Shown here: positions 21,800-64,000 of the stretch, piece after piece | Layout: each line of letters starts with the position of its first letter | Numbering within the stretch: the stretch's first letter is position 1 | DNA from: Sipunculus nudus | Lineage: Eukaryota; Annelida; Sipuncula; Golfingiida; Sipunculidae | Reading direction: 5' to 3' | NCBI GenBank assembly: GCA_026874595.1 | Contig: CM049322.1 | Span: forward strand, 30,505,340-30,569,339 | Length of the DNA: 64,000 nt | Made by a program: the position numbers and the translations under genes | Notes under the pieces: generated by a model | Told to the model about the DNA's origin: nothing | Databases searched by the model: none | Seen by the model: only the letters and a program-made list of their open reading frames with translations

Positions 21800-21811
21800 T
21801 GTAGAGAGTAC

Positions 21812-21850
<39 letters not shown>

Positions 21851-22195: not shown

Positions 22196-23879
22196 ACCCA
22201 AGATTGAGAACAGATGACTTAATCATGTTATGAAGAAACCTAAGAGGAAGATAATAAGCTATAATTTATGTAAATGAGGTTAATAGTTTTGGAGATATGG
22301 CCAAAAAATGATATGTTGTGCAAGTTTGAGTGCACCGCCCCCTAGCGGCCAATTCTGGAAAATGAAAAATAGGTTTCGAGATATTAGTGTAAGACATAAG
22401 ATGTAATAGTTTTAAAAGGATTCTTTCAAAACTGTGGCCTGTAGAATGCTATATGTGAGACGCAAGAACCGGCAAGCAAGCGAATTTGAGGACAACTGAG
22501 AAACAGACGGACACACAGACAAAGTGACTCAAGATTGAGACCAAATGAATACACCAGTTTTTTGGAAAGACCCAGAGGAAGAAAATAAGCTATAGTTTAT
22601 GTAAATGATGTTTATAGTATTGGAGATATGGCCAAAAAATGATATGTTGTGCAAGTTTGAGTGCACCGCCCCCTAGCGGCCAATTCTGGAAAATGAAAAA
22701 TCCGTTTCGAGATATTAGTGTAAGACATAAGATGTAATAGTTTTAAAAGGATTCTTTCAAAACTGAGGCCTGTAGAATGCTATATGTGAGACGCAAGAAC
22801 CGGCAAGCAAGCGAATTTGAGGACAACTGAGAAACAGACGGACACACAGACAAAGTGACTCAAGATTGAGACCAAATGAATACACCAGGTTTTTGGAAAG
22901 ACCCAGAGGAAGAAAATAAGCTATAGTTTATGTAAATGATGTTTATAGTTTTGGAGATATGGCCAAAAAATGATACGTTGTGCAAGTTTGAGTGCACCGC
23001 CCCCTAGCGGCCAATTCTGCAAAATGAAAAATCGGTTTCGAGCTATTCGTGTAAGACATAAGATGTAATAGTTTTAAAAAGATTCTTTTCAAAACTGTGT
23101 CCTGTAGAATGCTATATGTGAGACGCAAGAACCGGCAAGCAAGCGGATTTGAGGACAACTGAGAAACAGACGGACACACAGACAAAGTGACACAAGATTG
23201 AGACCAGATGACTAAACGAGTTCATGAAGAAGACTTAGAGGGAAAAAATACACTATAGTTTTTGTAATTGAGGCTTATAATTTTGGAGATATTGCCAAAA
23301 CATGATATGTTGGAGAGGTTTGCACCCAGCGCCCCCTAGCGGCCGAATTCAAAAAATGAAAAATTGATTTCGAGATAATAGTGTAGGACTTAAGATATGC
23401 CAGTTTCAAAAAGATTCCTGCAAAACTGTGGCCTCCAGGGCAAGATTACTGAAATCTCGAAATATCTCGTTTGACGAGATATTATAAGAGATATTGCGAG
23501 ACTCTTAATAGAATCTTGTAGTACTAGGTGAATGCTACCTGAAGCAAAAAACTAGACCTCTGTAGCTTTAAAACTGACAAATTTAGAAAAATATCAGCAC
23601 TTTTCCCCAAAAATGCGTTACCATGGTTACCGCAAATTTAGTCAGCTACACACCAGAAAACAGGCCTTGGAATGACGATTAAAATGAGCTACTGTTGAAG
23701 TAGATACGACCAACATTAACACAGATATGAACAAAAAACCGTTTTGTATACTTTTGATGACCTTGACCTTGACATTTGACCTATAATGCCCAAAAACAAT
23801 AGGCCTCCAGGACTTTTGCTTGTCTACCAGCTGTATAAGTTTGAAAGCAATTGCTGGAAAATTGTGGCCTGTAGAGAGT

Positions 23880-24052
23880 ACACAGACAGACAGACAAACA
23901 AACAAACAAACAGACAAACAGACATCCGCGACTGACCAACCTGCTTGCAGAAATCGAAGATTTACGGCAAGCAACAAACAGACAAACAGACATCCGCGAC
24001 TGACCAACCTGCTTGCAGAAATCGAAGATTTCCGGCAAGCAACAAACAAACT
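23880..24052 (+). repeat. hairpin minisatellite, two units
   Basis: Two 68-bp units with left arms at about 23942 and 24010, after a CAGACAAACAAACAAA tract. One right arm has TTTACGG in place of TTTCCGG, which breaks one base pair. A half hairpin ends the unit just after 24060. Confidence 0.88.
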
Positions 24053-26080
24053 AGATGACCTGAGGTCACGCGCTTGCCGGAAATGATGTAAAGTTAGTCA
24101 GATAAACGAGCAGTGTCAAAGTGAAAGAAAATAATCCATAGTTTGTGAAGAAAGAAGCAATATTAAAAAAGTTCTAAAGAAAATAAGATTTTGATATATT
24201 TTGATCACCTTGACCTTGATCTTTAACTTATTTGAGTAATAAACATAGGGCTTCCAGATATCATCACGATATATGACAAGTGTAATTTACAAAACGATTC
24301 CTGCAAAACTGTGGCCAGTAGAATGCAACATGTGAGACGCAAGAACCAGGAAGCAGGCGAAATTGAGGACAACTGACAAACAGACAAACATACTGACCCA
24401 AGATTGAGAACAAATGACTTAATCATGTTATGGAAAAACCTAAGAGGAAGATAATAAGCTATAATATATGTAAATGAGGTTAATAGTTTTGGAGATATGG
24501 CAAAAAAATGATATGTTGTGCAAGTTTGAGTGCACCGCCCCCTGGCGGCCAATTCTGGAAAATGAAAAATCGGTTTCGAAATATTAGTGTAAGACATAAG
24601 ATGTAATAGTTTTAAAAGGATTCTTTCAAAACTGTGGCCTGTAGAATGCTACATGTGAGATGCAAGAACCGGCAAGTAAGCGAATTTGAGTACAACTGAG
24701 AAACAGACGGACACACAGACAAAGTGACTCAAGATTGAGAGCAAATGAATACACCAGGTTTTTGGAAAGACCCAGAGGAAGAAAATAAGCTATAGTTTAT
24801 GTAAATGATGTTTATAGTTTTGGAGATATGGCCAAAAAATGATATGTTGTGCAAGTTTGAGTGCACCACCCCCTAGTGGCCAATTCTGGAAAATGAAAAA
24901 TCTGTTTCGAGATATTAGTGTAAGACATAAGATGTAATAGTTTTAAAAGGATTCTTTCAAAACTGTGGCCTGTAGAATGCTATATGTGAGACCCAAGAAC
25001 CGGCAAGCAAGCGAATTTGAGGACAACTGAGAAACAGACAGACACACAGACAAAGTGACTCAAGATTGAGACCAAATGAATACACCAGGTTTTTGGAAAG
25101 ACCCAGAGGAAGAAAATAAGCTATAGTTTATGTTAATGATGTTTATAGTTTTGGAGATATGGCCAAAAAATGATATGTTGTGCAAGTTTGAGTGCACCAC
25201 CCCCTAGCGGCCAATTCTGGAAAATGAAAAATCGGTTTCGAGATATTAGTGTAAGACATAAGATGTAATAGTTTTAAAAAGATTCTTTCAAAACTGTGTC
25301 CTGTAGAATGCTATATGTGAGACGCAAGAACCGGCAAGCAAGTGGATTTGAGGACAACTGAGAAACAGACGGACACACAGACAAAGTGACACAAGATTGA
25401 GACCAGATGACTAAACGAGTTCATGAAGAAGACTTAGAGGAAAAAAATACACTATAGTTTTTGTAATTGAGGCTTATAATTTTGGAGATATTGCCAGAAC
25501 ATGATATGTTGGAGAGGTTTGCACCCAGCGCCCCCTAGCGGCCGAATTAAAAATATGAAAAATTGATTTCGAGATAATAGTGTAGGACTTAAGATATGCC
25601 AGTTTCAAAAAGATTCCTGCAAAACTGTGGCCTCCAGGGCAAGATTACTGAAATCTCGAAATATCTCGTTTGACGAGATATTATACGAGATATTGCGAGA
25701 CTATTAATAGAATCTTGTATTACTAGGTGAATGCTACCTGAAGCAAAAAACTAGACCTCTGTAGCTTTAAAACTGACAAATTTAGAAAAATATCAGCACT
25801 TTTCCCCAAAAATGCGTTACCATGGTTACCGCAAATTTAGTCAGCTACACACCAGAAAACAGGCCTTGGAATGACGATTAAAATGAGCTACTGTTGAGGT
25901 AGATACGACCAATATTAACACAGATATGAACAAAAAACCGTTTTGTATACTTTTGATGACCTTGACCTTGACATTTGACCTATAATGCCGAAAAACAATA
26001 GGCCTCCAGGACTTTTGCTTGTCTACCAGCTGTATAAGTTTGAAAGCAACTGCTGGAAAATTGTGGCCTGTAGAGAGTAC

Positions 26081-32220: not shown

Positions 32221-32635
32221 AAAAAAAAACGGTTCGGGTCCTTTCCTGAAGGACTCACCGACCGAAACTTTGGACAGCAATCACCTGCATGCGCACAGAT
32301 GTGCAGGCACGCGCTTTAGGTCTGACCAGGTCTGACCAGGTCCAATGGTGACATTCCTATGGCCCTGAGAAAATGGTCAGCCCGTCCGGTATATTTATTC
32401 ACAAGTTTTTACCAGGAAATGGCCGTGGTCCCCGCTACGCCAATTAATTCATCCCGTCGGCTGCGGGCCTGAATTGGCATTTGGCCCGATTGACCCTACA
32501 CAAAACGAGCAAACTGCGCTGATTGTCGCTCATACCTACACGAGTCTTTGTCTTACTAAAACGCGTGTCATGGTGCATTCCTGCATGACTCTGTGCATTC
32601 AGGTTTCCCTCCGTTTATAAAGTTTATATGGACAT
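32221..32635. other. unique CG-richer insertion, nothing recognised
   Basis: About 400 bp of non-repetitive sequence between an A-run and a resumed satellite flank (tatggacatactgacaaag). It is richer in CG dinucleotides than its neighbours. A short direct repeat, ggtctgacca twice near 32320, is present. The A-run at one edge suggests retroposition, but no matching target duplication is visible. Confidence 0.45.
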
Positions 32636-33691
32636 ACTGACAAAGTGACACAAGACCGAGACCAGATGACTTAACCAGGTTATGGAGAAGACTCAGACGA
32701 AGAACATAAGCTATGGTTTATGTAATTGAGTCTTTGGGTTTTAGAGATATGGCCAATATGATGATATGTGTGTGAGGGTCATGTGTAGCGCCCCCTAGCG
32801 GCCAATTCTGGAAAATGAAAAATCGGTTTCGAGATATTCGTGTAAGACATAAGATGTAATAGTTTTAAAAGGATTCTTTCAAAACTGTGTCCTGTAGAAT
32901 GCTATATGTGAGCGCAAGAACCGGCAAGCAAGCGGATTTGAGGACAACTGAGAAACAGACAGACACACTGACAAAGTGACTCAAGATTGAGTCGAAATGA
33001 CTACACCAGGATTTTTAAAAGACTCAGAGGAAGAAAATAAGCTATGGTTTATGTAATTCAGGCTTATAATTTTGGAGATATTGCCAAAACATGATATGTT
33101 GGAGAGGTTTGCACCCAGCGCCCCCTTCCGGCCGAATTAAAAAAATGAAAAATTGATTTCGAGATAATAGTGTAGGACTTTCAATATGTCAGTTTCAAAA
33201 AGATTCCTGCAAAACTGTGGCCTCCAGGGCAAGATTACTGAAATCTCGAAATATCTCGTTTGACGAGATATTGTACGAGATATCGCGAGAATTTTAATAA
33301 AATCTTGCAGTACTTGTTAAATGCTACCTGATGCAAAAAACTAGACCTCTCTAGCTTTAAAACTGACAAAGTTAGAAAAATAAGACCCCTTATTTCAGAA
33401 TATCATGACTTTTTCCCAAAAATTCGTAACCATGGTTACGGCAAATTTGAGTCAGCTACACACCAGATGACTGGCCTTGGAATGACGTTTAAAATGAGCT
33501 TTGTTTGAAGAAGATACGACTAATAGTGACAAAGATATGAAGAAAAAACCGTTTTGAGAAGTTTTGATGACCTTGACCTTGACCTTTGACCTGTATTGCC
33601 CAAAAACAATAGGCCCCGAGGACTTTTGCTTGTCTACCAGCTGTATAAGTTATAAGGCAATTGCCTTAAAATTATGGCCTGTAGAGAGTAC

Positions 33692-33710
<19 letters not shown>
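32636..33710 (+). repeat. 331-bp satellite and cassette, isolated copy
   Basis: Two to three subunits (cores near 32788 and a damaged one near 33119, CCCCCTTCCGGCC), the inverted repeat near 33240, GTAACCATGGTTAC (33426-33439) and the nuclear-receptor-like motif (33569-33592). From 33180 on it is nearly identical to unit 3 at 17820-18310, including the shared TATAAGGCAATTGCCTTA variant. Confidence 0.87.
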
Positions 33711-33722
<12 letters not shown>

Positions 33723-34515
33723 TCCGCGACTGACCAACCTGCTTGCAGAAATCGAAGATTTCCGGCAAGCAACAAACAGACAAACAGACATCCACAACTG
33801 ACCAACCTGCTTGCAGAAATCGAAGATTTCCGGCAAGCAACAAACATACGCGGGTGATCAACATGCTTGCGAAAATCGAAGATTTCCGGCAGGCAACAAA
33901 CATACGGACTGATCAACATGCTTGCCAAATCTTTGATTCTGGCAAGCAACAAACAGACATCCGAGACTGACCAACCTTCTTGCCGAAATCGGAGATTTCC
34001 GGCAAGCAACAAACAGACATCCGCGACTGACCAACCTGCTTGCCGAAATCGAAGATTTCCGGCAAGCAACAAACAGACATCCGTGACTGACCAACCTGCT
34101 TGCAGAAATCAAAGATTTCCGGCAAGCAACAAACAGACAAACAGACATCCGCGACTGACCAACCTGCTTGCCGAAATTGAAGATTTCCGGCAAGCAACAA
34201 ACAAACAGACAGACATACGCGACTGACCAACCAACTTGCCAAAATCGAAGATTTCCGGCAAGCAACAAACAGACAGACAGACATACACAACTGACCAACC
34301 AACTTGCGGAAATCAAAGATTTCCGGCAAGCAACAAACAGACAAACAGACATCCGCAACTGACCAACCTGCTTGCCGAAATCGGAGATTTCCGGCAAGCA
34401 ACAAACATACGAACACATCAACATGCTTGCCGAATCTTTGATTCCGGCAAGCAACAAACAAACATACGCAAGTGACCAACATGCTCGTGAAAATCGAAGA
34501 TTTCTGGCAAGCAAT
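33711..34515 (+). repeat. hairpin minisatellite, thirteen units
   Basis: The largest hairpin array here. Left arms lie near 33739, 33807, 33863, 33918, 33972, 34037, 34097, 34165, 34233, 34302, 34368, 34421 and 34482. Both long-stem (GAAATC/GATTTC) and short-stem (GAATC/GATTC) forms occur, and one unit (33918) has G-to-A on the left arm with C-to-T on the right arm. Spacers are built from CAGACAAACAGACAT or CATACG blocks. The open frames of up to 249 codons are repeat translations. Confidence 0.92.
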
Positions 34516-48248: not shown

Positions 48249-48567
48249 AATTTGTAACTGAGACATGTACAGATATAAATCCATGTGAGAACAGATATTT
48301 AGTACTTGTTACTGTTACCACCTCTGAACACTGTTCTTTTGGCTGAGGGTTTTTGTCAGCTTCTGCTGATATTCTAGTTGACATGAGTGGCTGCAGGAAT
48401 TGATAACTTACATAAGGTGTAAGTTGATGAGGCTGTACAGTTTTATGAATGTTCACCTGTGTTTTTAATTCCCTTTTAACATCACAAATTTAAAAACCAG
48501 AGTATCAGGTGATATTGCACCATTTTACAAATTTAATGTGTACAATTATGCTCCTTAAATCTTTCAG
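48249..48567 (+). other. intron sequence with duplicated flank upstream of transmembrane exon 1
   Basis: From about 48420 the sequence (gtacagttttatgaatgttcac.. to ttaaatctttcag) is homologous to 49945-50089 and 59490-59596, so the duplicated unit includes at least 140 bp of upstream intron. A weak branch-point-like sequence and a short pyrimidine run (aaatctttcag) precede the exon. Confidence 0.6.
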
Positions 48568-48660
48568 TGTGCCTGTCTGGTGGGGAAACTGCAGGCATTG
48601 TGATTGGATTTGTTGCTGGAGGCGTTCTAATTGTTTGCCTCATTGTATTTGCTGTCAAAA
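48568..48660 (+). CDS. transmembrane exon 1 of a type I membrane protein (partial gene)
   Basis: 93 nt between ctttcag and gtaagtact. In phase 1-1 (2 nt, 30 codons, 1 nt) it is fully open. It encodes CLSGGET, then a hydrophobic helix with AGIVIGFVAGGVLIVCLIVF, then AVK. The helix is about 21 residues, ends next to a Lys and contains two overlapping GxxxG steps (G-IVI-G-FVA-G), a helix-packing motif. With the SGG linker on one side and the basic residue on the other, the N-terminal side should be extracellular. No family can be named from this exon alone. Two homologues lie downstream in the same orientation and phase. Confidence 0.72.
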
Positions 48661-48979
48661 GTAAGTACTGTAAATTTTCAAAATGAATATTTCACCTTAA
48701 AATAATGTATCACAGCTATGAAAAAAACATAGGTCACTGTAGGTAAAGGTTTAATTAAGACACACACATTGTGATTAAGAAACATCAGTGGTCTCATGTA
48801 CTGTGATGTGCAGTAATACCATGTCAGATGTTAGCATAAATATTTCTTACAAACTGTCCAACACCATGCACCACCAGAGTGCAAGATTAAATCAGACAGG
48901 AATTTATTACCATCACTGTTACTAAAGCAACTTTTTAGGCCAAGAAGTAATTTAACACCAACAACAAGTGCACATTTTT
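48661..48979 (+). other. conserved intronic flank after transmembrane exon 1
   Basis: About 300 bp (gtaagtact.. through accaacaaca) closely matches 59696-59995 after exon 3, including the gaaacatcagtggtctcatg block. Exon 2's flank matches only over its first 130 bp. It is part of the duplication unit and may carry splicing signals. Confidence 0.6.
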
Positions 48980-49162
48980 AGCTCAGCTGAGCTATAACAG
49001 TTGTCCTTTGTTCATCGTCCATCCATCTGGTTGTCACTCGACTCTGCATGTCTTGTAGCAGTTTGAATGCAAGTATATATAAAAACAAAAGAAACAGGTA
49101 TATTATGCAAAAATTTCCAAAATGAAAATTCTGCTGAGCAACACAACCTATGGGTCCTTTGT
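48980..49162 (+). mobile_element. Helentron-like element, 183-bp internally deleted copy
   Basis: The left end AGCTCAGCTGAGCTATA (loop part of the hairpin deleted) and the right end TCTGCTGAGCAACACAACC then TATGGGTCCTTTGT are joined by about 120 bp, with T on both flanks. It shows that the two ends define the mobile unit, since almost the whole interior is missing. Confidence 0.6.
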
Positions 49163-50089
49163 TAATGCTAGTGGTACAATCCAGGTAAATAAATTCTATT
49201 TGTTCATAATCTTTACGAAATCAGTACATGTTTAGAGGCTAACAACATTATGCTGTAGCTATGATTTCCTTTAAAAGGATATGTTTATGCATGTTGGCAT
49301 CACATTCTGTTGAGTGGGAATGAGGTTATCCATACCATATAGATGAAATGTAAATAGAAAGACATTACAGCAAATCTTTTGGGTTCTGGTAAGACTTCAC
49401 CATTATGCCATTGAGACATCAACAGGGTTCTAACCAGGTACCTGCTACTGCAAGGCCCAACACATAAACCACTAGGGTACGTCCTAGCCTAGACTGGCCA
49501 AGGAGATGCAAGTTTTAATACATAATTCCTCCTACTAACAGAGCTCCATCAATCTTGCTCTTGTTGTATCGCAATGCTTAGAACAGGCACTGCCACCTTG
49601 TGGCAAATCATTAACTAAAGTACGGCTCTTTGACAATTTCATAGTGATTTTTAGCTCAGCTGACCATAGGTCATCTGAGAAATACAGCAATCACCCTTTT
49701 CCATCTGTCTGTTAACAAAGCACATATCGTAACTGTTTGACCTAGACACTTTTTTTACGGTAAGGCCATGGTAAATCTCCTTGCATTCCTAAAAGTAGGT
49801 CACTGTGACCAACATTTTGTGAGTTACAAATACTTTTATGTGTTTGTAGAACTTAGAAAATGAGACTTGTTGTTATTACAGTATTTAAAATATGAATCTT
49901 GGACCTGCTATGCTGCAAGAAGGGGTAATTTAGATAAGATGTCAGTTGAAGTGTCTGTACAGTATGAATGTTCACCACGGTATGTATTTTCCCTTTCACA
50001 TACATTACAAATTTGAAACCACAGTTTCAGATGATATTGCAGTAATTTACCAGTTTAATGTGTACCATGATGCTCCATAAATCTTTCAG
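49163..50089 (+). other. intron with one element fragment and duplicated exon flank
   Basis: Unique sequence to about 49645, then a fragment starting AGCTCAGCTGACCATAGGTC (49653) that follows the family for about 200 bp without a right end. From about 49930 the sequence is homologous to the upstream flank of transmembrane exon 1. No other exon with paired splice sites is seen in the 1.43 kb between transmembrane exons 1 and 2. Confidence 0.6.
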
Positions 50090-50185
50090 GTCAGTCCCTG
50101 TCTGGTGGGGAATTTGCAGGCATTGTGATTGGATGTCTTGTTGGACTGGCTGTATTTATTGGCCTGACTGTATTTCCCATCATAA
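50090..50185 (+). CDS. transmembrane exon 2 of a type I membrane protein (partial gene)
   Basis: 96 nt between atctttcag and gtaagtaat, phase 1-1 (2 nt, 31 codons, 1 nt), fully open. It begins QSLSGGEF and continues AGIVIGCLVGLAVFIGLTVF, then PII. The first half is close to exon 1; the second half has diverged strongly, and the Lys/Arg at the cytoplasmic edge is absent. The GxxxGxxxG pattern is retained (G-IVI-G-CLV-G). A second AG at 50093-50094 is present, but using it would shift the frame. Confidence 0.7.
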
Positions 50186-51442
50186 GTAAGTAATGCAAAT
50201 TTTCAAAATGAATATTTCATCTAAAAGTAAGTTTCATAGCTATTTGCTTTGTTTACTGAAAAAAGTGACTGAGCCAACAGATAAAATTAAGACACACCCC
50301 ATACATTCAGAAACATCAGAGGTAATAGGCTTAAAACATGAATCTGGACAGATGGTGAAAAATAAGTCAAAACCATATAATCAGTCCAAAATTTGATTTT
50401 TAGCTCGGCTGACTGTATGCTAGTCAGCTGAGCTATAGTGATCCATCAGTGTCTGTCATCCATTGCTTAATCTACAAATCTGAAATTCAGCATAAAGACC
50501 TAAAATTAGGACACTATGAATTTGTTTCATCATGAAATTAAGGTTAAAACTTAAACTTTTCATTAAAAAAATGTTGTTACACTTCAGGGCTGCTTTTCTT
50601 TAAAACCACTTGTTAATTTGTTCATATTTGACAGACATGGTCCTTAATATATATCCTATGCATATGCCAGAAATTAGGTCAATATTGTGTAATTTTTAGT
50701 TCAACTTACTATAAGTTATCTAAGCTATAGTCATGGTCCATCGTCCGTTGTGCCGTCCGCCTGTCCACTCGTCTGTCCATCTGTTGGACTGGCACATATT
50801 GAAACCGTTATCCCTAGGAATCCAAAATGTGGCATACTAATAGATGTCCTCAAGATCAGAGTCCTACCAAACCGAAAACTGGTTTACTGCGACTTTGTTC
50901 CTTTGAGAAATTAAGGAAAAACCTCAATTGTGTAATTGTTAGTTCAGCTTACTATAAGTGATCTAAGGTATAGTCGTGGTCCACTGTCTGTCTGTCCATC
51001 TGTTAGACCAGTATGTATTAAAACCGTTAGACCTACAAATAAAAAATTTGGCATACTGTTAGATGTCCCAAAGATATCCTACCAAACCAAAAACTGGGTC
51101 ACTGTGAATTCAATAATTTGAGAAATAAAGAAAAAACCTCAATTTTCCATTAAACACATATTATCACACTTCAGGATTGCCTAATATAAAAACCACTCAT
51201 CTGTTATTCTTCATATTTACCATAAATGTTCCCCTATATAGTTCCTATGTACTTGTCAGAAATTCAGTCAGTATTACTTAATTGTATCCACCAAAACAGA
51301 GTTTTGTGGATACTATGTTTTCAGTCGGACGCTGCTTGTAGCTGCTCGATGAGTGTATTTTTTGGCTTTTTGGCTTTGGCTTGGCTGCCATCGCCACATA
51401 GGTTTCCAGAGAACTCCTCCATAACCAATGGGCCAAATTTTT
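50186..51442 (+). repeat. intron with three decayed element starts
   Basis: About 130 bp of exon-2 flank, then fragments starting near 50402 (agctcggctgactg), 50698 (agttcaacttactataag) and 50941 (agttcagcttactataag). Each is followed by part of the ccgtc tract and the agatgtcc..ccta(c/a)caaac body. None has a right end. The last runs into unique sequence near 51290-51430. Confidence 0.7.
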
Positions 51443-53233
51443 AGCTCAGCTGACTATAAGTCATCTGAGCTATAGTCGTGGTCCTTTGTCCGTCGTCTGT
51501 CTGTCCATCTGGCCGTCCGTCCGTTAACAGGGCACGTTTTAAAACCATTGGACCTACCATTCCAAAATTTTGCATACCATTAGATGTCCCCAAAATCTCC
51601 TACCATACAGAAAATTGGGTCATTAGGACTTTGTTCCTTTGAGATATTAAGGAAAAACCTCCATTTTCCATGAAAAAGCCATTGTTACACTTCAAGTCTG
51701 CCTAATATCAAAACCACTGATCTGTGTTTGATCATATTTAGTATTCATATTCTTCCATACATTTTCTATGAACATACAAAAAATTAGGTCATTGTTGGGT
51801 CTTATTTTGAAGTTATGGGCCAAAATATAATGCAATTTTTAAAAAATCAGGAAATATATTTACTCACCGAACATGAGAATTGCTGAAGCTAGAGACTTTT
51901 TTTCAGGAATATAACTTTATTTAATCAAGATTCAATTGTTTACCCAAAATTAGATTTGAATTTTGCAAAGTTTTCAAGTTATTAGCTTAAATAAAAAATC
52001 AATACCTTAAATTTTGTCCAACTTTGGCAATGGCACATTTTTTCCCTCTAAGCACTGTTGAATTTATTTTCACAGCATATATAAATAAGGATTTAATCTT
52101 TTAAAACCTGAAATTTCAAAGGAATTGATTTAAAAGGGTAGCTTTTATTCAAGTTTTTATACACAATGCCAAGAGTTGTTTACATCTGGCCCACCTAGTA
52201 GTACAGCCTTCACTTGCATTATGTAACCCACCCCAGGCAGCTTGCCTTGGCTCAGCTTGGAACTACCAGCAGGCTTCCCCTCTGCCCTGCACTCCCCCCC
52301 CCCCCCCACCAGGTGGTGCATAAACATAAATTTTGTATTGTACCACCAGGGTTACAATGATAAAAGTGCACATTTAATTGTGTCCACAAAGTGGTGTATT
52401 GCTATGAAAGTGTGGATGTTCATCAGATAAGTAATTCCTTACTTCAGAAGAGTAAAAACTTCACCAGGTGTGAAATTGACTATTAATTTCAGTAATAAAT
52501 TAAAACTGAGATAGTAATTAGCACAATGATATTGTTTGTCCCTCATTCAACCAACAGTGTGTATACTTTATTTGAAAAGATGTTTTATTTGATCAAATTT
52601 ACTGAATCTTTTATTTTATTTCAGTGAATAAAATTAAGCATGTACTGAAAACTCCAATGTGCAAAACTTTAGTGATTCAAGGAATAATCTTGTAGATCCC
52701 ATGTTGTGGCATTATTTTCTTTTAAATTTTGTTTAAACATTTGTGATTTAAAAATAATAAAATATATGTGTATGCATAATATGACCCAATATGAGCTACA
52801 CCCTGGATATATAATGATTGCAACAATTCTAATATTTTAACTTATATTTCAGTTTTTTCACTATTGATATTTAATGATTGCAACTTTTGCAACAATTTTA
52901 ATATTTTAACTTGTATTTTCAGTTTTTTTATTTAAAATTTAAAAAACTTATAAATAAAAAAAATGATTCAGATAAAAACTTTTAATGGAAAAAGTGGATA
53001 TGCTAAAAAAATAGACTTATATATAAACTTAAATGCATTATTCCCATGAAAGTGCTATAAAGGTGCTATAAAGTCCATTCTGTCCCATTGCCTGTCCATC
53101 TGTAAATTTTCATAACCAAGTAGGAGGGCCCCTTTCCTCATAGCTTCTCATATTCTTATATATACAATAGAATATTTTGCATTTGCAAAAATTTCAAACT
53201 TCAGCTGAGCGCTGTGACCCATGGGTCCCTTGT
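51443..53233 (+). mobile_element. Helentron-like element, complete 1.79-kb copy
   Basis: The left end AGCTCAGCTGACTATAAGTC forms a hairpin with GTCATCTGAGCT. Left GCTCAGCTGA (51444-51453) is the exact reverse complement of right TCAGCTGAGC (53201-53210). The palindrome GACCCATGGGTC lies at 53216-53227 and the end is CCTTGT at 53233, with T on each side and no target duplication. The body has a C-run near 52292-52307 and no coding capacity. It is the best type copy of the family in this window. Confidence 0.68.
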
Positions 53234-54305
53234 TTAAAATTTGGAATTATGCTCGGGTCACATGTGAAATGCTGTGCCCTCATTTTTAGTTGACCTCTGA
53301 CCTTTCCTCTCTGCCCAGTGTCCATTTGTGCATCTGTTTCCACACATAAACCCACATATCTTGGAAACAGTTTGATCAGTGGCTAAAAATTTTGCACAAA
53401 TGTATCCCTTGGATAGCTTTATAACATACACTAAAAATAGTGGCGCCACCTGCAACCATTTTTGTACAGCGTCCATCTGTTCATCTGCCTTGGGATAAAA
53501 TCACTCATATCTCTGCATTGGTTGGACTTATCCGCCAGAAATTTTGCATGTGTATACATCCTGGATAGCTTTCTTGATTTTGTTACAGGTGGCGCCACCT
53601 ACATTCTTGTTCAGACTGCAGACATACAGGCTTATATCTCAAGACTGGTTTGACATATCCTTTTGAAATTTTGCATGTGTACAGATCTCACATAGCTCTT
53701 TATCATAGGCAAAACTTGTGGCACCACCTGCAACCATTTTTGCACAGCATCAGTCTGTTTGTATGCCGTTGGATAAAATCACCATGTCAAGGCAGTGGTT
53801 TGACTTATATGCCTAAAATTTTGCAGGTTTATACATCTTGGATAGCTTTCTGGATTTTATGGCAGGTGGCGCTACCTACATTTATGTTTACGCTGCACAC
53901 ATCCAGGCTTATATCTTAGGGCTGGTTTGCTGTATCCTCCTGAAATTTTGCATGTGTATAGATCTCACATGGCTCTTTATCGCAAAACTGGAGGTGCTAC
54001 CTACAACCATTTTTGCACAGTGTCTGTCTGTTTGTCTGCCGTTGCATAAAATCAATTATATACAAGTAGTGGTTTGACCTATCTGCCTAAATTTTTGCAT
54101 ATGTATACAACTTGGATTGCTCTTTGGACTTTGTGGTAGGTGGCACCACCTACATGCATATTTCTGCTGCAGACATCCATAGAAATATGCAACGCACCTC
54201 ACTCCATTTCCCCTTACCACTCAATCCATGCCTCACTTCACCTGTCTCACTCTGATTTCGGTGGATACACGTAGTTGCTTGTTGACTATCCATATTCTAG
54301 TTTAT
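53234..54305 (+). repeat. 277-bp dimeric satellite element, copy 1 (three dimers)
   Basis: Type A monomers (ggtggc(g/a)ccacctgcaacc) at about 53439, 53719 and 53991 alternate with type B (ggtggc(g/a)ccacctacat) at about 53588, 53866 and 54138. The dimer period is 272-280 bp. Most monomers have the palindrome GGTGGCGCCACC or a one-base variant. It starts with a gctgtgccctcatttttagt block and ends ttgttgactatccatattctag, both shared with copy 2. Confidence 0.88.
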
Positions 54306-55150
54306 TAAAGTTATAGGCCAAAATATAATGCATTTTGTAAAAATTTTTACTCGCTTAACTTGATAAGTGTTGAAGCTGGAGACTCTTTTTAAGGAATGTA
54401 AATTTATTTAATCAAGATTTAGTTGTATACACAACATGGATCAACCAATTTGAAGCTTATGAACATAACCGTAATGGGGTCTCGAAAAAAAACATTCCAC
54501 CAATCAGTCAAACAAAACAGTTCATTGTATTAATTTGGGGTAAGGTAAGGAGCGTGATGATTAATTAATTAAACCACTTATCGCTTGCGCCGGTAGAGTG
54601 AAATACATTATCTGTTCATTCCAAATGAAGGTTCATTTACCCACCGGTACTGATCGAGGGAGCAACAGAACGCACCTGCCAGGCAAGACAAATTTAACAA
54701 AATATTATGTTAATATTATATCATTTGACAATCTTACCTCCAATACATTCTGGTTTTTGGTCTATGACTTGCGAGGACGACAAAACGTGCATGAAGGCCC
54801 TCGTGAAAAAAGTACAAATTCTTGCGATGTGCTGTTCAGTGGCATGGCGCAAGAGAAAAGACTGATTATCCCAAGTGGAACCCTGCCTAGGAATTCTGCA
54901 CATGCACAGTGGAGAACTAACAATGTGTGATAAATTGATAACCAATCAGATTCCGTTTTCTCTACACCTTCTGTATATGATAGATCACTAAATATACAAG
55001 TTACACATGAGAAATCTTGAATGCATGTGTGGTGCTAAATAAATACTTTAATGGTCCTTCAACCCTGAAACGTCATTTAGGCAAAGTCTTTAAGTATATG
55101 CAAACAGATTTACCAACAGCCCAAGATTGTGTCTGTATCTTTAAATAGTT
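54306..55150. other. element fragment, then unique sequence with an unassigned open frame
   Basis: 54306-54440 is a piece of the AGCTCAG-family body. 54440-55150 is unique. An open frame of 110 codons runs 54598-54930 (+), and an overlapping one of 74 codons runs on the minus strand. Neither has a domain, signal peptide or splice context I recognise. The CCAAT-type motifs aaccaatcag (54939) and caccaatcag (54498) bracket the frame. Confidence 0.35.
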
Positions 55151-55620
55151 TTAGAAACTACCAACTGTTTCAGATTTGGCAACAGATCAAGAGTTCATTC
55201 AGTGCAGCCAGATATAGGTCAAGAGTTCAGTCAGTGCAGCCAAGCACAAGGCATGTGATCACCTCATGGGTGACATGTGAACACCTCATGGGCACCATGT
55301 GATCACCTCATGGGTGTCATGCCCCTCAGGGCTGCATGTTGAGCCAATCTGTGAGCTTATGCAATGGTGTGGCTACTATTTCAGATTTGGCAACAGACAA
55401 AAGTTCAGTCTGGATCTATTTATAGCTTTGGCAGCCTGTCAACTGTGTCAGATTATGCAACAGGTCAAGAGTTCACTCAGTGCAGCCAGGTACAGGTCAA
55501 AAGTTCACTCAGTCTAGCCAGGTGGAGGTCATGAGTTCACTCAGTGCAGTAGCCTAAGCCAGCAAATTTGACACAGTTCACTCGGGGCAACTGTCTTTCT
55601 CACCTAAGCCTGGTCAGCCC
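55151..55620 (+). repeat. short tandem repeats (30 bp and 23 bp)
   Basis: About five copies of a ggtcaagagttcactcagtg-type unit with gcagcca between, and three copies of a unit starting catgtgatcacctcatggg (55251-55320). The first carries AGGTCAAGAGTTCA, an AGGTCA-type direct repeat with a 2-bp spacer. No coding frame is supported. Confidence 0.75.
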
Positions 55621-56832
55621 CATGCATCAGCCTGAAGGTAAGTTTGATGTATTGGCCTGATATTTTGACCTTTATGTGACTTTGATGGCTTTATCGTTCA
55701 CAAGACAGGTGTCGCCACCTACAATGACTTTTGCACAGTGTATGTGCATGCTTATTTCTACAGAGGAATTTGATATATCAGCCTGAAATTGGGCATATTT
55801 ATACATATTGAATAGCTTTGTCATATACAAGACTGGAGGTGCCAACTACAATAATTTTTACAAAGTGTGTGTCCCTGCTTATTTCTGAGGAGGGGTTTGA
55901 TATATCAGTCTGAAATTGGGCATATGTAAAATAACTGATATCTTCGTTGTATACAAGACTGGTGATGCCAGCTACAATCATTGTTGTGTTTTGTGCATTC
56001 ATGCCAGAATTTCAGCAGTGATGTTTGTGTAATTGTTAGCGAACCTGTGAGCTTATGCGATGGCGCAGCGTCTTCCGTCTGTCGTTCGCCATCCGCCGTC
56101 CAGGGCTGGCTTTCCGCCATCCATGGCTGTAAGTCAGAAACTGTGGGAGCTAGCAGCTCCAAATTACATGTAAAAATTAGTCACATGTGAAACTTGGTGC
56201 CCTGGAGCTTATTATTGGGTATCTGCATTAATTTAGATTTTATAGAGAAAAAGCTGAAAAACCTTTAAAAATCTTCTTCTCTGAAACTGTCCAGCCAAAT
56301 TGTCCAATATTTCACAGAAATGTTCCTTGGAACAATCTCTCTCAAGTTTGTTCGAATGGTTTCAGTTCAGAGATTTTTGGCCGAGTCAATGGAAGTTGAA
56401 CTTAGTCATCTGTGCAAAAACTTAACTTAAAATCTCATAAACGGCTAGAGTTATAATCACCAAATTTTATACCAATGTTTGTCACATATGTCATGTCTGA
56501 TTTTGAGGTATTGGTGGCACCACATACATTAATGTGTTTTTTATAAGCGAAAATGTAGTTTTAAACTCTTCAAGCTTATACACTGATTTATGATGAAACT
56601 GTTAAGCTGATTGGTTTAAACTTTACAATAATTATTCTATGGTAGGGTTCCGCCAGTTTTATAAGAATATATTGGGTAAATACAACTTTAAAAAAGCATT
56701 GTAGCCAATTGAAAAAGGCTTTCTGTATTTGAAAACAGATTTGACAACTTGCTGAGTTTCAGCAGCCAAGTCAAGAGGTCACTCAGTACAAACAGGTGGG
56801 GTCCAGATATCACCATGGCAACTGACCTGGCT
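55621..56832 (+). repeat. GGTGGCGCCACC-family fragment, then diverged repeats
   Basis: 55690-56000 matches 36000-36190 (tgtcgccacctacaatgac, tatatcagcctgaaattggg). 56030-56160 is a CG-richer stretch unique here (gtcgttcgccatccgccg). 56160-56830 resembles diverged invertebrate repeats with tggtggcaccacatacatt near 56512. No gene is seen. Confidence 0.6.
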
Positions 56833-56900
56833 GGGGGGGGGGGTGTCTAGACAATGTGTCTAGACGTCTAGACGCTGTGTCTAGATGTCTAGACACAATG
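56833..56900. repeat. G-run and TCTAGA palindrome cluster
   Basis: A G-run (56833-56843) is followed by GTCTAGACGTCTAGAC, a 16-bp perfect palindrome (56858-56873), and a 22-bp near-perfect palindrome (TGTGTCTAGATGTCTAGACACA, given in two parts TGTGTCTAGAT and GTCTAGACACA; 56876-56897). It is absent elsewhere in the window. Confidence 0.8.
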
Positions 56901-58295
56901 TTTAGATGCAGAATTCCCAGATTATTGGAACTATATCTTTCAACTGTTTGAAAAAACTTGGTTTATTATCAAGTCACATATGAACTGCTGTGCCCTCATT
57001 TTTGGTTGACCTCTGACCTTTCCTCGCTGCCCAGCGTCCATTTTTGCATCTGTTTCCACACATAAACCCGCATATCTTGGGAACTGTTTGACCAATCAGG
57101 CTAAAAATTTTGCACAAATGTAGCCCTTTGATAGCTTTATAATATACACGAAAAATGGTGGCGCCACCCAAAATCATTTTTGCACAGTGTCCATCTGTTC
57201 ATCTGCCTTGGGATAATAGCACTTATATCTCAGCAGTGGTTTAACTTATCCACCTGAAATTATGCAGGTTTATACATCCTGGACAGTTCCTTTGATTATG
57301 ACAGGTGGCGCCACTACATTCACCTTTACTCTGCAGACATCCAAGCTCAAATCTCTGGAACTGTTTGACCGATTGGGCCAAAATTTTGCATGTGTACAGA
57401 TCTCAGATAGCCCTTCATGATAGGCAAAACTGGTGGCGCCACCTGCAACCATTTATGCACAGCACCCATCTGTTCATCTGCCTTTGGATAAAATCACTCA
57501 TATCTCAGCAGTGGTTGTTTGACTTATCTACCTGAAATTTTGCAGGTTTATACATCCTGGACAGCTTTCTTGATTTTATGACAGGTGGCGCCACCTACAT
57601 TCACCTTTACTGTGCATACATCCAAGGTCATATCTCGGGAATCGTTCAAACGATTTGGCCAAAATTTTGCATGTGTATAGATCTCAGGTACCCCTACATC
57701 ATAGGCAAAACTGGTGGCGCAATCTGCAACCATTTATGCACAGCACCCATCTGTTCATCTGCCTTTGGATAAAATCACTCATATCTCAGCAGTGGTTTGA
57801 CTTATCCAACCTGAAATTTTGCAGGTTTATACATCCTGGACTGTTTTCTCGATTTTATGACAGGTGGCGCCACCTACATTCACATTTACTGTGCATACAT
57901 CCAAGCTCATATCTTGGGAACAGTTTGACCGATTTGGCCAAAATTTTGCATGTGTATAGATCTCATATAGCTCTTCAGCATGGGTAAAACTGGTGGCGCC
58001 ACCTGCAACCATTTATGCACAGCTTCCATCTGTTCATCTGTTTGGGATAAAATTGCTCATATCTCAGCAGTGGTTTGACTTATTCACCTTTTTTGCAGGT
58101 TTATACATCCTGGACATTTTCTCGATTTTATGACAGGTGGCACCACCTACATTCACTTTTATGCTGCAGACATCCATGCTAATATGAAACACACCTCATT
58201 CTATTACCCTTACCACTTAATCCATGCCTCACTTCAACTGTATCATTCTGATTTCTGCAGATACACAGTCGCTTGTCGACTACCCATATTCTAGT
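56901..58295 (+). repeat. 277-bp dimeric satellite element, copy 2 (four dimers)
   Basis: Same borders as copy 1. Type A monomers at about 57161, 57433, 57714 and 57991; type B at about 57303, 57586, 57862 and 58138 (dimer spacing 272-283 bp). Most carry GGTGGCGCCACC. It has one dimer more than copy 1, so the number varies between otherwise equivalent elements. Several open frames of 60-110 codons are repeat translations. Confidence 0.88.
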
Positions 58296-59475
58296 TTTAA
58301 AATGTCCTAGTCTGAAACTTGCAGGTCTGAAATGTCAATTTTGCTGAAATCATTATGACTAAGGGACATATGCAGGACTTACAAGGATCAATATTAAATT
58401 TTAAAAATAAACCTCCATTCATACTCCCAAACTTTGCACAGGTTCGCATTAGGCCTGTAGGCCTTGTTTCTTATTTAGAATGTTTAGTACTTGCATTGTT
58501 CATATACATGAAAAGTAATGGTCCAGCATTGAAGCATTATACCTGGTGTATTCCCAATGCTCAGGTTTGCATTAGGCCTGTAGGCCTTTTCGCTATTTTT
58601 TTTACCTTTAAAGATATGAACATCTGTTAACAGGGCACAAAACATAACAACTGGACCTAGAATCTTCATTCTTGACACACAGGGAGACCCATGAAAAGCC
58701 TCCATGGAAACCTGAAATTAGGTCTCTGTTACCCATATCTTTCAAGCTGTAGGACTCCGAAGTATCCCCTCTCTATTTTAGAGACCTCTTAAGATGTGTT
58801 CATCTGTTATCAGAGCACTAATTGTAACCATTGGTCCTAGAATCTTCTAACTTGACATCCAGGGGGGTCTGTGAAAAATATCCTTGGAAACTTTAAATTA
58901 TGTCTCTGTTACCCATATTCTCTGAGCTATGGGGCTTATAAGCACCCCCAGCATAATTAAAAATTTGAAATCAAGCAGGTCACAAATCATAACCATTAGA
59001 TCTGAAATCTTCTAACTTAAAATAAAGAGAGGTCCATGAAAAGTATCCTGAAAACGTGAAATGAGGTCTCTGTTACCCATATTTTCTGAGCTATTGGGCT
59101 TATAAGCACCCCTCAGAATAACTGAAAATTTGAAACCAAAGTAGGGCACAAATCATAACAATTGGGCCCAGAATCTTCTAACTTGATATCTTGAGAATTC
59201 CTTAAAAGTTCTCCCCAGAAACCTGAAATTTGGTCATTGTGACCTATATTCTCAGGGTTTTAGGGTATGTTTGAGCACCCCAGGAATAATGCAAAATACA
59301 CAAAAATTGCCAGATTCCTCAGGAAAGGCTGGTTGGATTGTCATCAAATTTGTTGAGCTTATGGGTCTTGATGAACTTAAGCTAATATACATGAACAATG
59401 ATCCCACCTACATTATCATTATTAGTTGCCTGTGCAAGGACATATTGTCACATGTCAGTCTGCTGAGCGTCACAA
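58296..59475 (+). repeat. tandem fragments of the AGCTCAG-family interior
   Basis: 58300-58600 has gcattaggcctgtaggcc twice (also at 36340). From 58630 come four diverged units with cctagaatcttc, gaaacctgaaat and acccatatt(t/c)tctgagctat, spaced about 180-250 bp, as in 41010-42425. It ends with a right-end-like block, tgctgagcgtcacaaccc and atgggtcac, near 59460-59487. Confidence 0.65.
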
Positions 59476-59596
59476 CCCATGGGTCACTTAATATTTTCCC
59501 TTTCACATACATCACAAATTTAAAACCACAGTATCAGATGATATTGCACCAATTTACCAATTTAATGTGTACCATGATGCTCCATAAATCTTTCAG
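59476..59596 (+). other. duplicated flank upstream of transmembrane exon 3
   Basis: From about 59490 (ttaatattttccctttcac) to aaatctttcag the sequence is close to 49985-50089 and clearly homologous to 48460-48567. It supplies the acceptor site of exon 3. Confidence 0.65.
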
Positions 59597-59695
59597 GGCA
59601 GTGCCTGTCTGGTGGGCAAATTGCAGGCCTTGTGATCGGATGTGTTGCCGGATGTGTACTAATTGTTTGCCTCATTGTAATTGCTGCTGTCAGAA
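59597..59695 (+). CDS. transmembrane exon 3 of a type I membrane protein (partial gene)
   Basis: 99 nt between ctttcag and gtaagtact, phase 1-1 (2 nt, 32 codons, 1 nt), fully open. It begins QCLSGGQI and continues AGLVIGCVAGCVLIVCLIVI, then AAVR. It is closer to exon 1 than to exon 2 in both coding and flanking sequence, although exon 2 lies between them. GxxxGxxxG is retained (G-LVI-G-CVA-G), and an Arg follows the helix. Downstream cytoplasmic exons are not recognised before 64000. Confidence 0.72.
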
Positions 59696-60395
59696 GTAAG
59701 TACTGCAATTTTTTTTAATGAATATTCACCTAAAAGTAAGTATCATAGCTATGAAAAAAGCATAGGTCACTGTAGGTAAAAGGTTTAATTAAGACACACA
59801 CATTATGAATCAGAAACATCAGTGGTCTCATGTACTGTGATGTATAGTATGCCATGTCAGATGTTAGCATGAATATTTCTTATAAACAATCCAACCATGC
59901 ACCACCACAGTTCAAGATTAAATTGGACAGGAACTTAATACCATCTTTGTTATTAAAGCAACTTTTCAGACCAAGAAGTCATTGAACACCAACCACCAGC
60001 TGATATTGAGCTGTAACAATGGTCCTTTGTTCATTGGCTATCCTCCTGTCAATTAATAGGGCACCCTTAGAAAATGTTAGACCTACAAATTCAAAATTTG
60101 ACATACAGTTAAATGTCCCTAGTTCTCCTACCAAACCCAAAAGTGGGTCATTGTAACTTTGATTTTTAGAACCTGTTTTCCATTAAAAACCTTTGCATAC
60201 ACTTCTAGACTGCCTACTCTCAAAACCACTGTTGTTGTTTTATTCATATTGGGCATTGATATTCCTCTATTTATTTCCTACATGCCAGAAATTTTGTAAG
60301 TTATGCGTAATTATGTCTCCCCTCCTCCAGAGGAGACATGTTGTTTTCAGTGCCATCATGTGTTGTGTTCATTATCAGCTGTATCGTCTGTAGGA
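59696..60395 (+). other. intron: conserved exon flank, then a decayed element fragment
   Basis: 59696-59995 closely matches 48661-48965. 60000-60330 is a degraded AGCTCAG-family fragment (gagctgtaacaatggtcc, aatagggcaccctt, aaatgtccc). Nothing else is recognised. Confidence 0.6.
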
Positions 60396-60632: not shown

Positions 60633-61235
60633 TGTAATATCCTTAATTAAATAACCCCAACTTGACCTAGTACCATGTACTGCAACCACCGTGTAATCAG
60701 AGAACCACAACCTGTGAAAAATGATGATCCTCCCTCCATGCTAGAGAGTCCAGCAGCAGAGCCACAAGATGAGCCTCTGAAATCATGTGAATCAAATACT
60801 GGACAATATTATACTCGGTATGGCAGACCTGTTTGCAGAACCAAAGAAGTTAAATATGTAATGAAATGCAACTTCTTTATTCACTGGACTTACAGTTTAT
60901 AATGTAGTTTATATATCCGTATTTATCAACATTATCCTTGAGTGGTTAACCTGCTATAACCATTAAAGCTTACCTCTATTTTAAAATATTTAATCATTTA
61001 TATTTTGCTTAGGAAGGAGGATGTAATATCCATACTTAAATTACCCCAACTTGAACTTGTACCAAGTAAGCCACTTGATGGCAGCATAGGTATGTATACA
61101 AAAAATAGTCCCTTCTGTACCCATAGCATAAAAAGTAGCCCTATATTTTCTTGAGCCTATACAATGGAGCTGTAACAGAAAAGCAATGTGTTAGCAAAGA
61201 CCAGTCTTAATTTTTACTTCAAACAGAACATTACA
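60633..61235 (+). mobile_element. 603-bp miniature LTR retroelement
   Basis: A purine tract AGGAAGGAGGA (61011-61021) is followed by a 3' LTR that starts TGTAATATCC (61022) and ends CATTACA (61235): 214 bp with TGTAAT..ATTACA ends. The first 43 bp of the element (60633-60675) repeat the LTR start (TGTAATATCC..ACCCCAACTTGA), so the 5' LTR is truncated. Flanks GTTAC (60628-60632) and GTGAA (61236-61240) each differ by one base from GTGAC found at this place in sister 130-bp repeats, which fits a decayed 5-bp target duplication. It is a deletion derivative that keeps only the 3' end of pol. Ty3-like is my best guess. Confidence 0.65.
60675..60902 (+). pseudogene. C-terminal tail of a retroelement Pol-like frame (fragment)
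   Basis: A 75-codon open stretch stops 110 bp before the purine tract, the usual place for the end of pol. It has an acidic, Pro-rich part (DDPPSMLESPAAEPQDEP) and then YYTRYGRPVCRTKEV, which resembles the basic TRxGR-type tail after integrase in Ty3-like elements. No protease, reverse transcriptase or integrase core remains. The resemblance is from memory of the family, without a search. Confidence 0.4.
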
Positions 61236-61640: not shown

Positions 61641-62359
61641 GATACAACATATATGGAAGTGTGAAAACAAGCCATTTTAGTTTGTTGAAGTAATGGGCCC
61701 CAAGATCATGTGCTTTGTAAAAAAATCAGGAAAGATTTTTACTCATTTAACATGATAATTGATAAAGCTAAAGAGCTTATTTCAAGCATATAACTATATA
61801 TAGTTTAGTTTATATTGTATACTAGAAATTAGATAAAAAAGTTGAAAATTTTAGTATTTTGTTATTTGCATAAACGAAAAAATATTACTTTAAATTTTGC
61901 CCAACTTTGAATATGGCACATTTTTTCCCTGTAAATACATTTTTTATTTCATACGCAATGAACAGTTAATGTGATAAGCCTATAAAATCTTATATTTGAA
62001 AGCAATTAAAAGAAAAATAAGTTATATTAATGTTTTTGAAGACCAGGTCAGGTATTGTTTACAACAAGCCTTGTTACACTTCAAGACTGCCCACCATGAA
62101 AGCCATGGGTGTTTTTTTTGGTGCAAATTTTTGCATAACTACATTTTCCATGAACATGATAGAAAATTAGGTCAATAAAGACTTATTTGTTATAGTTATT
62201 GAGCCAAACACAATATACCTTGTAGAAACATCAGTATAAAGATATTTACCCACTTTACATGGTTACTCTGGAAGCTAGAGAGTGTTTTTATAAGTGTTTA
62301 CCTATATTTGATATAGATTTAATTGTATACCAGAAATTTATCAGAATTTGTAAATTTTT
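61641..62359 (+). repeat. interior fragments of the AGCTCAG family
   Basis: Matches the element body (aagttatgggcccaa, aacatgataattg..aagctagag, ttaaattttgcccaactttg..atggcacattttttcc), with two joined fragments. It has no left end of its own. Nothing else is seen. Confidence 0.65.
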
Positions 62360-64000
62360 AGCTCAGCTGACTATAAGTCATCTGAGCTATAGTTGTGGTC
62401 CATTGTCCGTCGTCCGTCCGTCCGTCCGTCCGTCCGTCGATGTGGCACGTTTTGAAACCGTAAGACCTAGGGATCCAAAATTCAGCATAATGTTAGATGT
62501 CCCCAAGATCTCCTACCAAGCCGAAAACTGGGTCTTTGCGACTTCATTCCTTTGAGAAATTAAGGAAAAACCTCAATTTTTTATTAAAAACCTATTTTCA
62601 CACTTCAGGACTGCCTAATATCAAAACCACTCATCTGTTTTTCCTCATATTTCCTATAAATAATCCTCTATATAATTCCTATGTACATGCCAGAAATTAG
62701 GTCTGTATTATATAATTTAAAAAAGTTATGGGCCCAAACATAATGCATTTTGTAAATAATCAGGAAAGAAATTTTATCACTTAACACCAAACTTGTTAAA
62801 GCTAAGCACTTTTTTCCAGTAATATTACTTTTATTAATCAAAATTAAATTGTATACCCAAAATTAGATCAAAATCTTTTAAATTTTTTAAAATATTAGCA
62901 AAAATAAAAAATTGGTACCTTAAATTTTGCCCAACTTTGACCATGGCACGTTTTTTTGCTGTAACTGCTGTGGATTTAATTTTCACAGCATGTTTTTGTT
63001 AGCATTTCAACTGTAAACACCAAAAATTTGAAACCAGTTGATCAAAAACTGTAGATTTTATTCAAGTTTTCAAGCACCATGTCACATATTGCTAGTGTTA
63101 TGCAGTTTGCCAGAGCTCAGCTCCCGAGCTTCAGCTCTAAGTTCCTTAAATTTGGCATACAGTTAGATTTCTCCAAAATCCCCTACCATGCCAAGAATTT
63201 GGTCACTAGGACTTAATTCCTTCGAGATATCAATGAAAAACTTCATTTTTCCATTAAAAACCCATTGTTACACTTTAAGACTGCCTAATATCAAAACCAC
63301 TGATCTGACTTTGATCATATATAAAATACATATTTTTCTATACATTCGCTATGCACATGCCAGAAATGATGTCAGTATTGTGTATTTTTTTTAAGTTATG
63401 GGCCCAAACATAATGCACTTTGTAAAAAATCAAGAAATATATTTACTCCCTTAACAAGGGCATTGCTGAAGCTAGAGATTTTATTGTCAGGGATGTAACA
63501 TTATTTAATCAAGATTCAATTGAATACCCAAAATTAGTTCTGAATTTTTCAAATTTTATAAGCTATTAGTATAAATATAAAATTAGTACCTTAAATTTTG
63601 CCCAACTGTGACCATGGCACGTTTGTTTCCTGAGAGCACTGTTGATATAATTTTCATATCATGCACACATAAGGATTTCAGCTTTTTAGTTTAGAAAGCT
63701 GAAAGAAATTGGCCAAATATTGTAGCTTTTATTAATGTTTTTTATGAGGCCCTGTCAGACTTTGGCTCTCTCCAGCCCCTCTTGAGTCACCTGTATGTTG
63801 ACCTTGTTGACCTTTCATCAAATTATGCACGCTTGAGGCGAGAATCCAGGCAGCTTATGGCCAGCCACAGTTGATCCAGGTGTCCAACCCAACTCATCTA
63901 GTAGTTTTAACCAACAACATAACAATAAACAATAAATTAATAAATTTTTCTTGGTTTTTAATAACAAATTAAAGAAAAATAGAAAAGGAATTTGTTAGTT
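62360..64000 (+). mobile_element. long Helentron-like element, second copy, cut by window end
   Basis: Starts at AGCTCAGCTGACTATAAGTC and is nearly identical to 9088-10740 across 1.64 kb, with small indels (for example in the CCGT tract) and rare substitutions. The right end lies beyond the window. The sharp left border at AGCTCAG in both copies, in unrelated contexts, supports a mobile unit. Confidence 0.7.

Follow-up and report, generated by a model that had tools for sequence, protein, structure and literature searches.

Three tandem membrane-helix exons at a candidate immunoglobulin-receptor locus of Sipunculus nudus: a possible cassette of interchangeable membrane anchors

Much work has been devoted to recognition domains that are alternatively spliced; alternative membrane anchors are, to our knowledge, known mainly from Dscam1. 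In Drosophila, each mRNA of this immunoglobulin (Ig)-superfamily receptor carries one of two mutually exclusive membrane exons, 17.1 or 17.2 (PMC3364881). According to two reviews, the membrane domains serve dendrite versus axon targeting (PMC9880076) and seem to have a role in the placement of the protein within the cell (PMC8787164). Another related case is the pearl oyster, where Ig genes of one family, whose products often have a membrane domain, form a cluster with copy-number variation between haplotypes (PMC9646362). The present analysis concerns a stretch of 64,000 nucleotides (nt) of Sipunculus nudus DNA (assembly GCA_026874595.1, contig CM049322.1, here C17, positions 30,505,340 to 30,569,339 of the forward strand; hereafter the window), in which three homologous exons, each encoding one membrane helix, follow one another on the same strand. 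The locus resembles Dscam1 exon 17 in its anatomy and would apparently be an independent case. The original prediction made from this DNA had placed duplicated exons mostly in extracellular or pore regions. Such a description is incomplete, because the choice of a membrane exon as such is already known from Dscam1 exon 17 (PMC3364881, PMC8787164).

As in Drosophila Dscam1, the tandem homologous exons each encode a whole membrane helix, apparently within an Ig-superfamily receptor whose ectodomain exons would be shared. Unlike in Dscam1, there are three copies instead of two, 1.4 and 9.4 kb apart, and the choice among them is a prediction. Furthermore, none of the tests made here points to orthology, and the ten Ig and six FN3 domains that define a Dscam were not found: a V-type exon and one C2/I-type exon are the two Ig exons recognised by motif scan in 284 kb, and no FN3 was found in a coarse motif scan of 204 kb. 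Three of the four Dscam1 clusters consist of ectodomain exons, whereas the duplicated unit here is the membrane helix. With the pearl oyster cluster, to which it can be likened by description only, the locus shares the presence of many Ig-domain genes on one chromosome. In contrast with the C17 receptors, the oyster proteins often carry FN3 domains, and the passages considered here say nothing of a choice between membrane exons (PMC9646362). The literature searches made here, to which this negative is confined, brought up no molluscan Ig receptor with a described choice of membrane exon.

The three exons (Table 1) are located at 30553.9, 30555.4 and 30564.9 kb of C17, with 1,429 nt between copies 1 and 2 and 9.4 kb between copies 2 and 3. 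All are bounded by AG and GT, the upstream flank ending in ...AAATCTTTCAG (...CTTTCAG at the border) and GTAAGTA following directly on the 3′ side. Read as 2 nt, codons and 1 nt, every copy yields one helix behind LSGG, and the best 19-residue hydropathy is 3.01, 2.59 and 3.19 for copies 1, 2 and 3, respectively. With a position weight matrix of generic metazoan frequencies, the acceptors score 5.2, 7.4 and 7.4 and the donors 8.0, 6.4 and 7.8; these values correspond to about the 90th-99th percentile among the 3,908 AG and 3,219 GT of the window. Direct reading and splice scores thus bore out the coordinates, lengths, common strand, good splice sites and phase first proposed for the exons, and the hydropathies agree with one membrane helix per exon. 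It had also been claimed that the exons are open in this reading only. This was incorrect, as a reading that skips the first exon base is free of stops in all three copies as well and encodes a Trp/Cys-rich, non-membrane peptide. Pfam gave only sub-threshold matches for the three short helices, and no match for frame 1 of window positions 36001-64000.

Like symmetric tandem exon duplications generally, the copies share phase 1-1, lengths divisible by three and homologous flanks. Being tandem, homologous and interchangeable, they have the make-up of a mutually exclusive cluster. Gly10, Gly14 and Gly18 (copy 3 numbering) are invariant in the three copies and form a GxxxGxxxG pattern, which is linked to helix dimerisation. 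The largest differences between the copies fall in the inner helix half, and most of the divergence of copy 2 lies there as well; the exon end of copy 2 is devoid of basic residues.

It could be imagined that these features are a chance exon-like pattern inside a non-coding low-copy repeat. Single exon-like segments are indeed common, with 188 candidates on one strand of the window, and copies 1 and 3 have diverged about as much in the exon as in the flanking introns. In a control using 204 kb of real sequence on both strands, with splice limits set just under the copies' own scores and hence post hoc, 215 exon-like segments passed, including 28 in phase 1-1 (75-150 nt). A hydropathy of at least 2.5 was reached by 4 of these 28, and three of the four are copies 1-3. 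Ten Markov simulations of 64 kb gave 26 phase-1-1 segments, a single one of which attained 2.2. The copies are therefore hydropathy outliers with respect to both real-sequence and Markov controls, which argues for more than chance. In the 1.43-Gb genome, searches by DNA, protein and pattern each returned copies 1-3 and no fourth copy; in these searches, as in those made with the Ig exons, the best candidates only were scored. The DNA search from copy 3 produced one further match, a 38-nt intron fragment on C1.

A scan of 204 kb around the copies showed retroelements and repeats only. The likely ectodomain exons (Table 1) emerged on extension to 284 kb (C17:30405340-30689339); scans combining splice sites, coding content and motifs over 124-204 kb had missed them because they lie 21-34 kb outside. 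The V-type exon stands 143 kb, and the second Ig exon 130 kb, upstream of the copies. The two are 12.3 kb apart and both are intact. The V-type exon matches Pfam V-set at 9.6e-4, under the curated cut-off, and its best PDB matches are T-cell receptor (TCR) delta V chains (2.9e-3). Two paralogue exons share 42-46% identity with it, and neither the two cysteines nor the core Trp vary among them. Since two paralogous V-type exons have no Pfam match at 0.001, the label rests on the C...W...C pattern together with the V-set and TCR delta matches. The second Ig exon is 45-48% identical to three paralogue exons, and these three match Pfam at 0.001. The coding model had been trained on eight open reading frames of G protein-coupled receptors. 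With this model, even true Ig exons reach no more than about 0.05 per codon, so that low coding scores are not evidence of non-coding sequence; the Ig exons (0.06, 0.04) have values similar to those of the membrane exons (0.08, 0.04, 0.09).

Both Ig exons have most of their relatives on C17. With the V-type exon, 23 of 24 matches at E ≤ 10, query included, are found there, as are all 22 at E ≤ 0.001, again including the query. With the second Ig exon, 48 of the 67 matches are on C17, and 35 of 36, query included, at E ≤ 0.001. The C17 matches are grouped at 14.99-15.19 Mb and 29.4-32.5 Mb. The window lies inside the second group, and cluster matches near it are mostly on the + strand. Some members look degraded: stop codons interrupt 2 of the 24 V-type matches and 3 of the 67 obtained with the second Ig exon, one of these three being on C12. 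Near one of the two Ig pairs for which no membrane exon was found (see below), Ig-V-Ig exons occur within 2.4 kb, so that the cluster may also include exon arrays or longer proteins with multiple Ig domains. The family being a multigene cluster, one may ask whether the copies belong to three separate complete receptor genes. This explanation was rejected. Among the best candidates, the intervals 30411161-30859533 and 30423782-30716382 are free of V-type and second-Ig matches, respectively, so that family ectodomain exons were not found around the copies (C17 30423782-30716382); moreover, copies 1 and 2 are only 1,429 nt apart. Three complete genes, already considered doubtful in the original prediction, are hence hardly credible.

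Within the cluster, membrane exons were recognised downstream of two paralogous Ig pairs (Table 1). The first was chosen by eye among 11 listed candidates in 20 kb, and a search with it returned one relative, which is the second (protein E 0.019, DNA E 4.1e-29). Aligned with its splice flanks to copies 1, 2 and 3, the first paralogue exon scores 234, 212 and 238. The maxima of 1,000 shuffles each were 205, 185 and 182, none of the shuffles reaching the observed score, and the best of 1,530 control windows on the + strand of the window gave 176. When both strands of the 284 kb were divided into 7,096 windows and these were ranked against this exon, the three copies took the first three places (246, 242, 232; next 216). 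At the protein level, copies 1 and 3 resemble the first paralogue helix well, their scores being reached by 3 and 11 of 1,000 shuffles, and a donor-side sequence, GTAAGTACTGTAAATTT, is common to copy 1 and the second paralogue. A competing window at 122001, third or fourth in score with the paralogue exons, was discarded, its alignment being gappy and without a helix frame. From these alignments, the copies are very probably membrane exons of the C17 family of receptors with V-type and C2/I-type Ig exons. The alignment to the paralogue membrane exon, with homology at the expected place in two Ig paralogues, led, together with the hydropathy controls, to the rejection of the chance pattern, which is very improbable.

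Downstream of both paralogue membrane exons, 1.8 kb are 76% identical (L033:1705-3530, L035:1268-3084) and most conserved near the 3′ end (58/60 and 53/60). Neither a convincing cytoplasmic exon nor an evident open exon was found in these homologous 1.8 kb.

The copies are contained in duplicated blocks (Table 1). The flanking introns had been described as homologous, and self-comparison agrees, with 84% identity between 48469-49024 and 59496-60043 and 79% between 48390-48719 and 49912-50243. Exon identities are 77% for copies 1-2, 87% for copies 1-3 and 74% for copies 2-3. Both exon indels are of 3 nt, and the flanking introns have gaps of 1, 2 and 8 nt. An estimated 16.5 of 28.5 substitutions fall on the copy 2 branch. 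In its upstream intron and first exon half, copy 3 sides with copy 2 (23 versus 9 informative sites); past mid-exon, it sides with copy 1 (35 versus 9), the first 60 nt of the downstream intron siding with neither (7 versus 6). The mosaic has a Fisher p of 1.4e-5, with a breakpoint picked after looking. Judged from the distribution of these sites, copy 3 is a recombinant of copy-1 and copy-2 types. Between copies 2 and 3, the exon (74%) appears to have changed faster than the upstream intron (94%, p 7e-5). Positive selection was considered from this difference and dropped, because copy 3 is a mosaic.

Table 1. Features of the candidate receptor locus and of two paralogous units; positions without prefix are those of the window
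Feature	Position	Strand	Properties
Membrane-helix exon copy 1, CLSGGETAGIVIGFVAGGVLIVCLIVFAVK	48568..48660	+	93 nt, phase 1-1
Membrane-helix exon copy 2, QSLSGGEFAGIVIGCLVGLAVFIGLTVFPII	50090..50185	+	96 nt, phase 1-1; most diverged copy
Membrane-helix exon copy 3, QCLSGGQIAGLVIGCVAGCVLIVCLIVIAAVR	59597..59695	+	99 nt, phase 1-1; mosaic
Duplicated block around copy 1, exon and flanking intron	48390..49024	+	self-comparison, 78.9% to block 2, 83.7% to block 3
Duplicated block around copy 2	49912..50323	+	self-comparison
Duplicated block around copy 3	59492..60043	+	self-comparison
V-type Ig exon	C17:30410854-30411162	same as copies	309 nt, phase 1-1, acceptor 8.3, donor 10.3
Second Ig exon (C2/I-type)	C17:30423508-30423783	same as copies	276 nt, phase 1-1, Pfam Ig_3 4.7e-10, above cut-off
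First paralogue membrane exon, NLPRQGLPGWAISLVIGSIAVGVLLSSFA	C17:31027563-31027652		90 nt, phase 1-1; 1.2 kb past second Ig exon of 31024252 (V)/31026099 (Ig)
Second paralogue membrane exon, NPLSLGLPSWPILIVIGSIGVGVLVSSIA	C17:31276873-31276962		90 nt, phase 1-1, acceptor 5.7, donor 8.7; 2.4 kb past second Ig exon of 31272893/31274206

Considering this arrangement, the simplest model is the following. A gene with the order V-type Ig, Ig, one of three membrane exons and tail would encode a single-pass cell-surface receptor with the V-type domain at its N-terminus. Its introns would be unusually large, with 12.3 kb between the two Ig exons, versus about 1-1.6 kb in the two paralogues, and 130 kb before copy 1. 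At the window locus, two tandem duplications would have copied the membrane exon together with some hundreds of bases of intron on its sides, copy 3 arising as a recombinant of the other two types. Upstream, any copy would continue the frame of the second Ig exon, and downstream that of whatever phase-1 exon follows. Splicing would then produce the same ectodomain with different membrane helices, the homologous splice environments making the copies exchangeable. The consequences could concern helix-helix association, membrane partition or trafficking, as with the two Dscam1 membrane exons. We infer, across 130 kb, that the copies and the upstream Ig pair are probably parts of one gene. For the model as a whole, that is, one V-Ig plus Ig receptor gene with a triplicated membrane exon of which more than one copy would be used, the chances appear evenly balanced. 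The more specific picture of a cluster locus bearing a cassette of three interchangeable helices, born of duplication and recombination, with a fixed binding head and spliced anchors, is put forward tentatively and stands somewhat below even.

Several observations weigh against the one-gene model. The Ig-to-membrane gap of 130 kb, to be compared with 1.2 and 2.4 kb in the paralogues, is mostly repetitive DNA and includes a retroelement, presumably BEL/Pao-like. Over the 284 kb, the self-repetitive share is 64%. The DNA that follows copy 3, over as much as 124 kb, yielded no recognisable cytoplasmic or terminal exon. Given a gap with retroelements, no recognised downstream exon and a cluster that holds degraded-looking members, the copies might be relics, that is, membrane exons left from receptor genes whose Ig exons were lost and unconnected to the Ig exons 130 kb upstream. 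However, the Ig-Ig-membrane order is that of the paralogues, and this locus has intact Ig exons. In addition, the interval from the second Ig exon to copy 1 has 83 phase-1-1 candidates of 60-150 nt, among which there is no family helix and no other membrane exon was recognised, although weak hydrophobic candidates of other phases or with weaker sites do exist in this interval. Relics are considered improbable.

The comparison with the paralogues has its own weaknesses. Their helices are less hydrophobic (2.19 and 2.29), and copy 2 has no protein similarity to the first paralogue helix, 461 of 1,000 shuffles reaching its score. The second paralogue ranks the copies less clearly: copies 1 and 2 tie in first place and copy 3 is seventh (224, 224, 201; best other 215, the window at 122001). 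Its V-type match holds a stop codon, and this unit may be a pseudogene. For two other Ig pairs, no membrane exon was found in the approximately 9 and 7.5 kb downstream. Finally, an unrelated minus-strand window scored 232 against copy 1, so that a lone score of such size is unconvincing.

Also against the one-gene model, purifying selection between the copies is not visible, the ratios of nonsynonymous to synonymous substitution rates (dN/dS) being 2.56, 0.77 and 1.37, and none of the corresponding Fisher tests is significant (p 0.16, 0.74, 0.80). In neutral simulation from the inferred node, all three copies stay open with a hydropathy of at least 2.59 in 6.7% of runs. This joint neutral probability of 0.067 suggests selection for a working helix and is suggestive only. 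It may then be supposed that one tandem copy is used, the other two being recent and functionless with frame and splice sites still intact. Such a situation would fit the dN/dS ratios, the high neutral survival of each open frame (0.90, 0.65 and 0.81 for copies 1, 2 and 3) and the state of copy 2, which has diverged mainly in the inner helix half and lacks a basic residue at the exon end. On the other hand, splice sites, phase, 3-nt indels and high hydropathy have been kept in 3/3 copies, with the joint neutral probability given above. Use of a single copy is thus a serious but unlikely alternative.

If more than one copy is used, as the one-gene model supposes, mutual exclusion is a separate matter. 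The symmetric phase permits an exclusive choice, yet joining two copies in series stays in frame, so that the sequence does not enforce exclusivity. Neither of two kinds of exclusivity device, a too-short intron or docking/selector RNA pairing, was identified: the introns between the copies (1.43 and 9.4 kb) are not short, and among 33 inverted-repeat pairs, the 25 shown (71-89% complementary) contain no set of arms common to the three exons.

The surroundings of the locus are rich in repeats. About 20 kb before the window, within the Ig-to-membrane gap, C17 carries a pol fragment of a retroelement (Integrase_H2C2 7.3e-11, L006:239-805), which we take to be the BEL/Pao-like element. Window positions 3522-5629 and 6669-8763 form a recent 2.1-kb duplication (96.5% identical), and a dispersed repeat is present in two 1.66-kb copies, 96.7% identical and about 52 kb apart (9067-10723 and 62340-64000). 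Arrays of related units of about 330 bp with shorter subrepeats occupy 14000-26000 and 32600-34500; their minus-strand translation gives long open Cys-rich pseudo-ORFs (open reading frames). Just past copy 3, an open frame at 60666-60902 contains ...YYTRYGRPV..., which we assume to resemble the C-terminal end of a retroelement polyprotein. Further downstream, the + strand has long open frames of a presumably gypsy-like retroelement (L025, L026), at about 169-174 kb when counted from the start of the window.

Should the additional copies be unused, the locus would still be a clear case of membrane-exon duplication with a recombinant third copy. If the one-gene model is true, receptor families of immune-related appearance can also acquire a choice of membrane helix, and the side of an immune-type receptor that has been diversified would be signalling or trafficking, not recognition.

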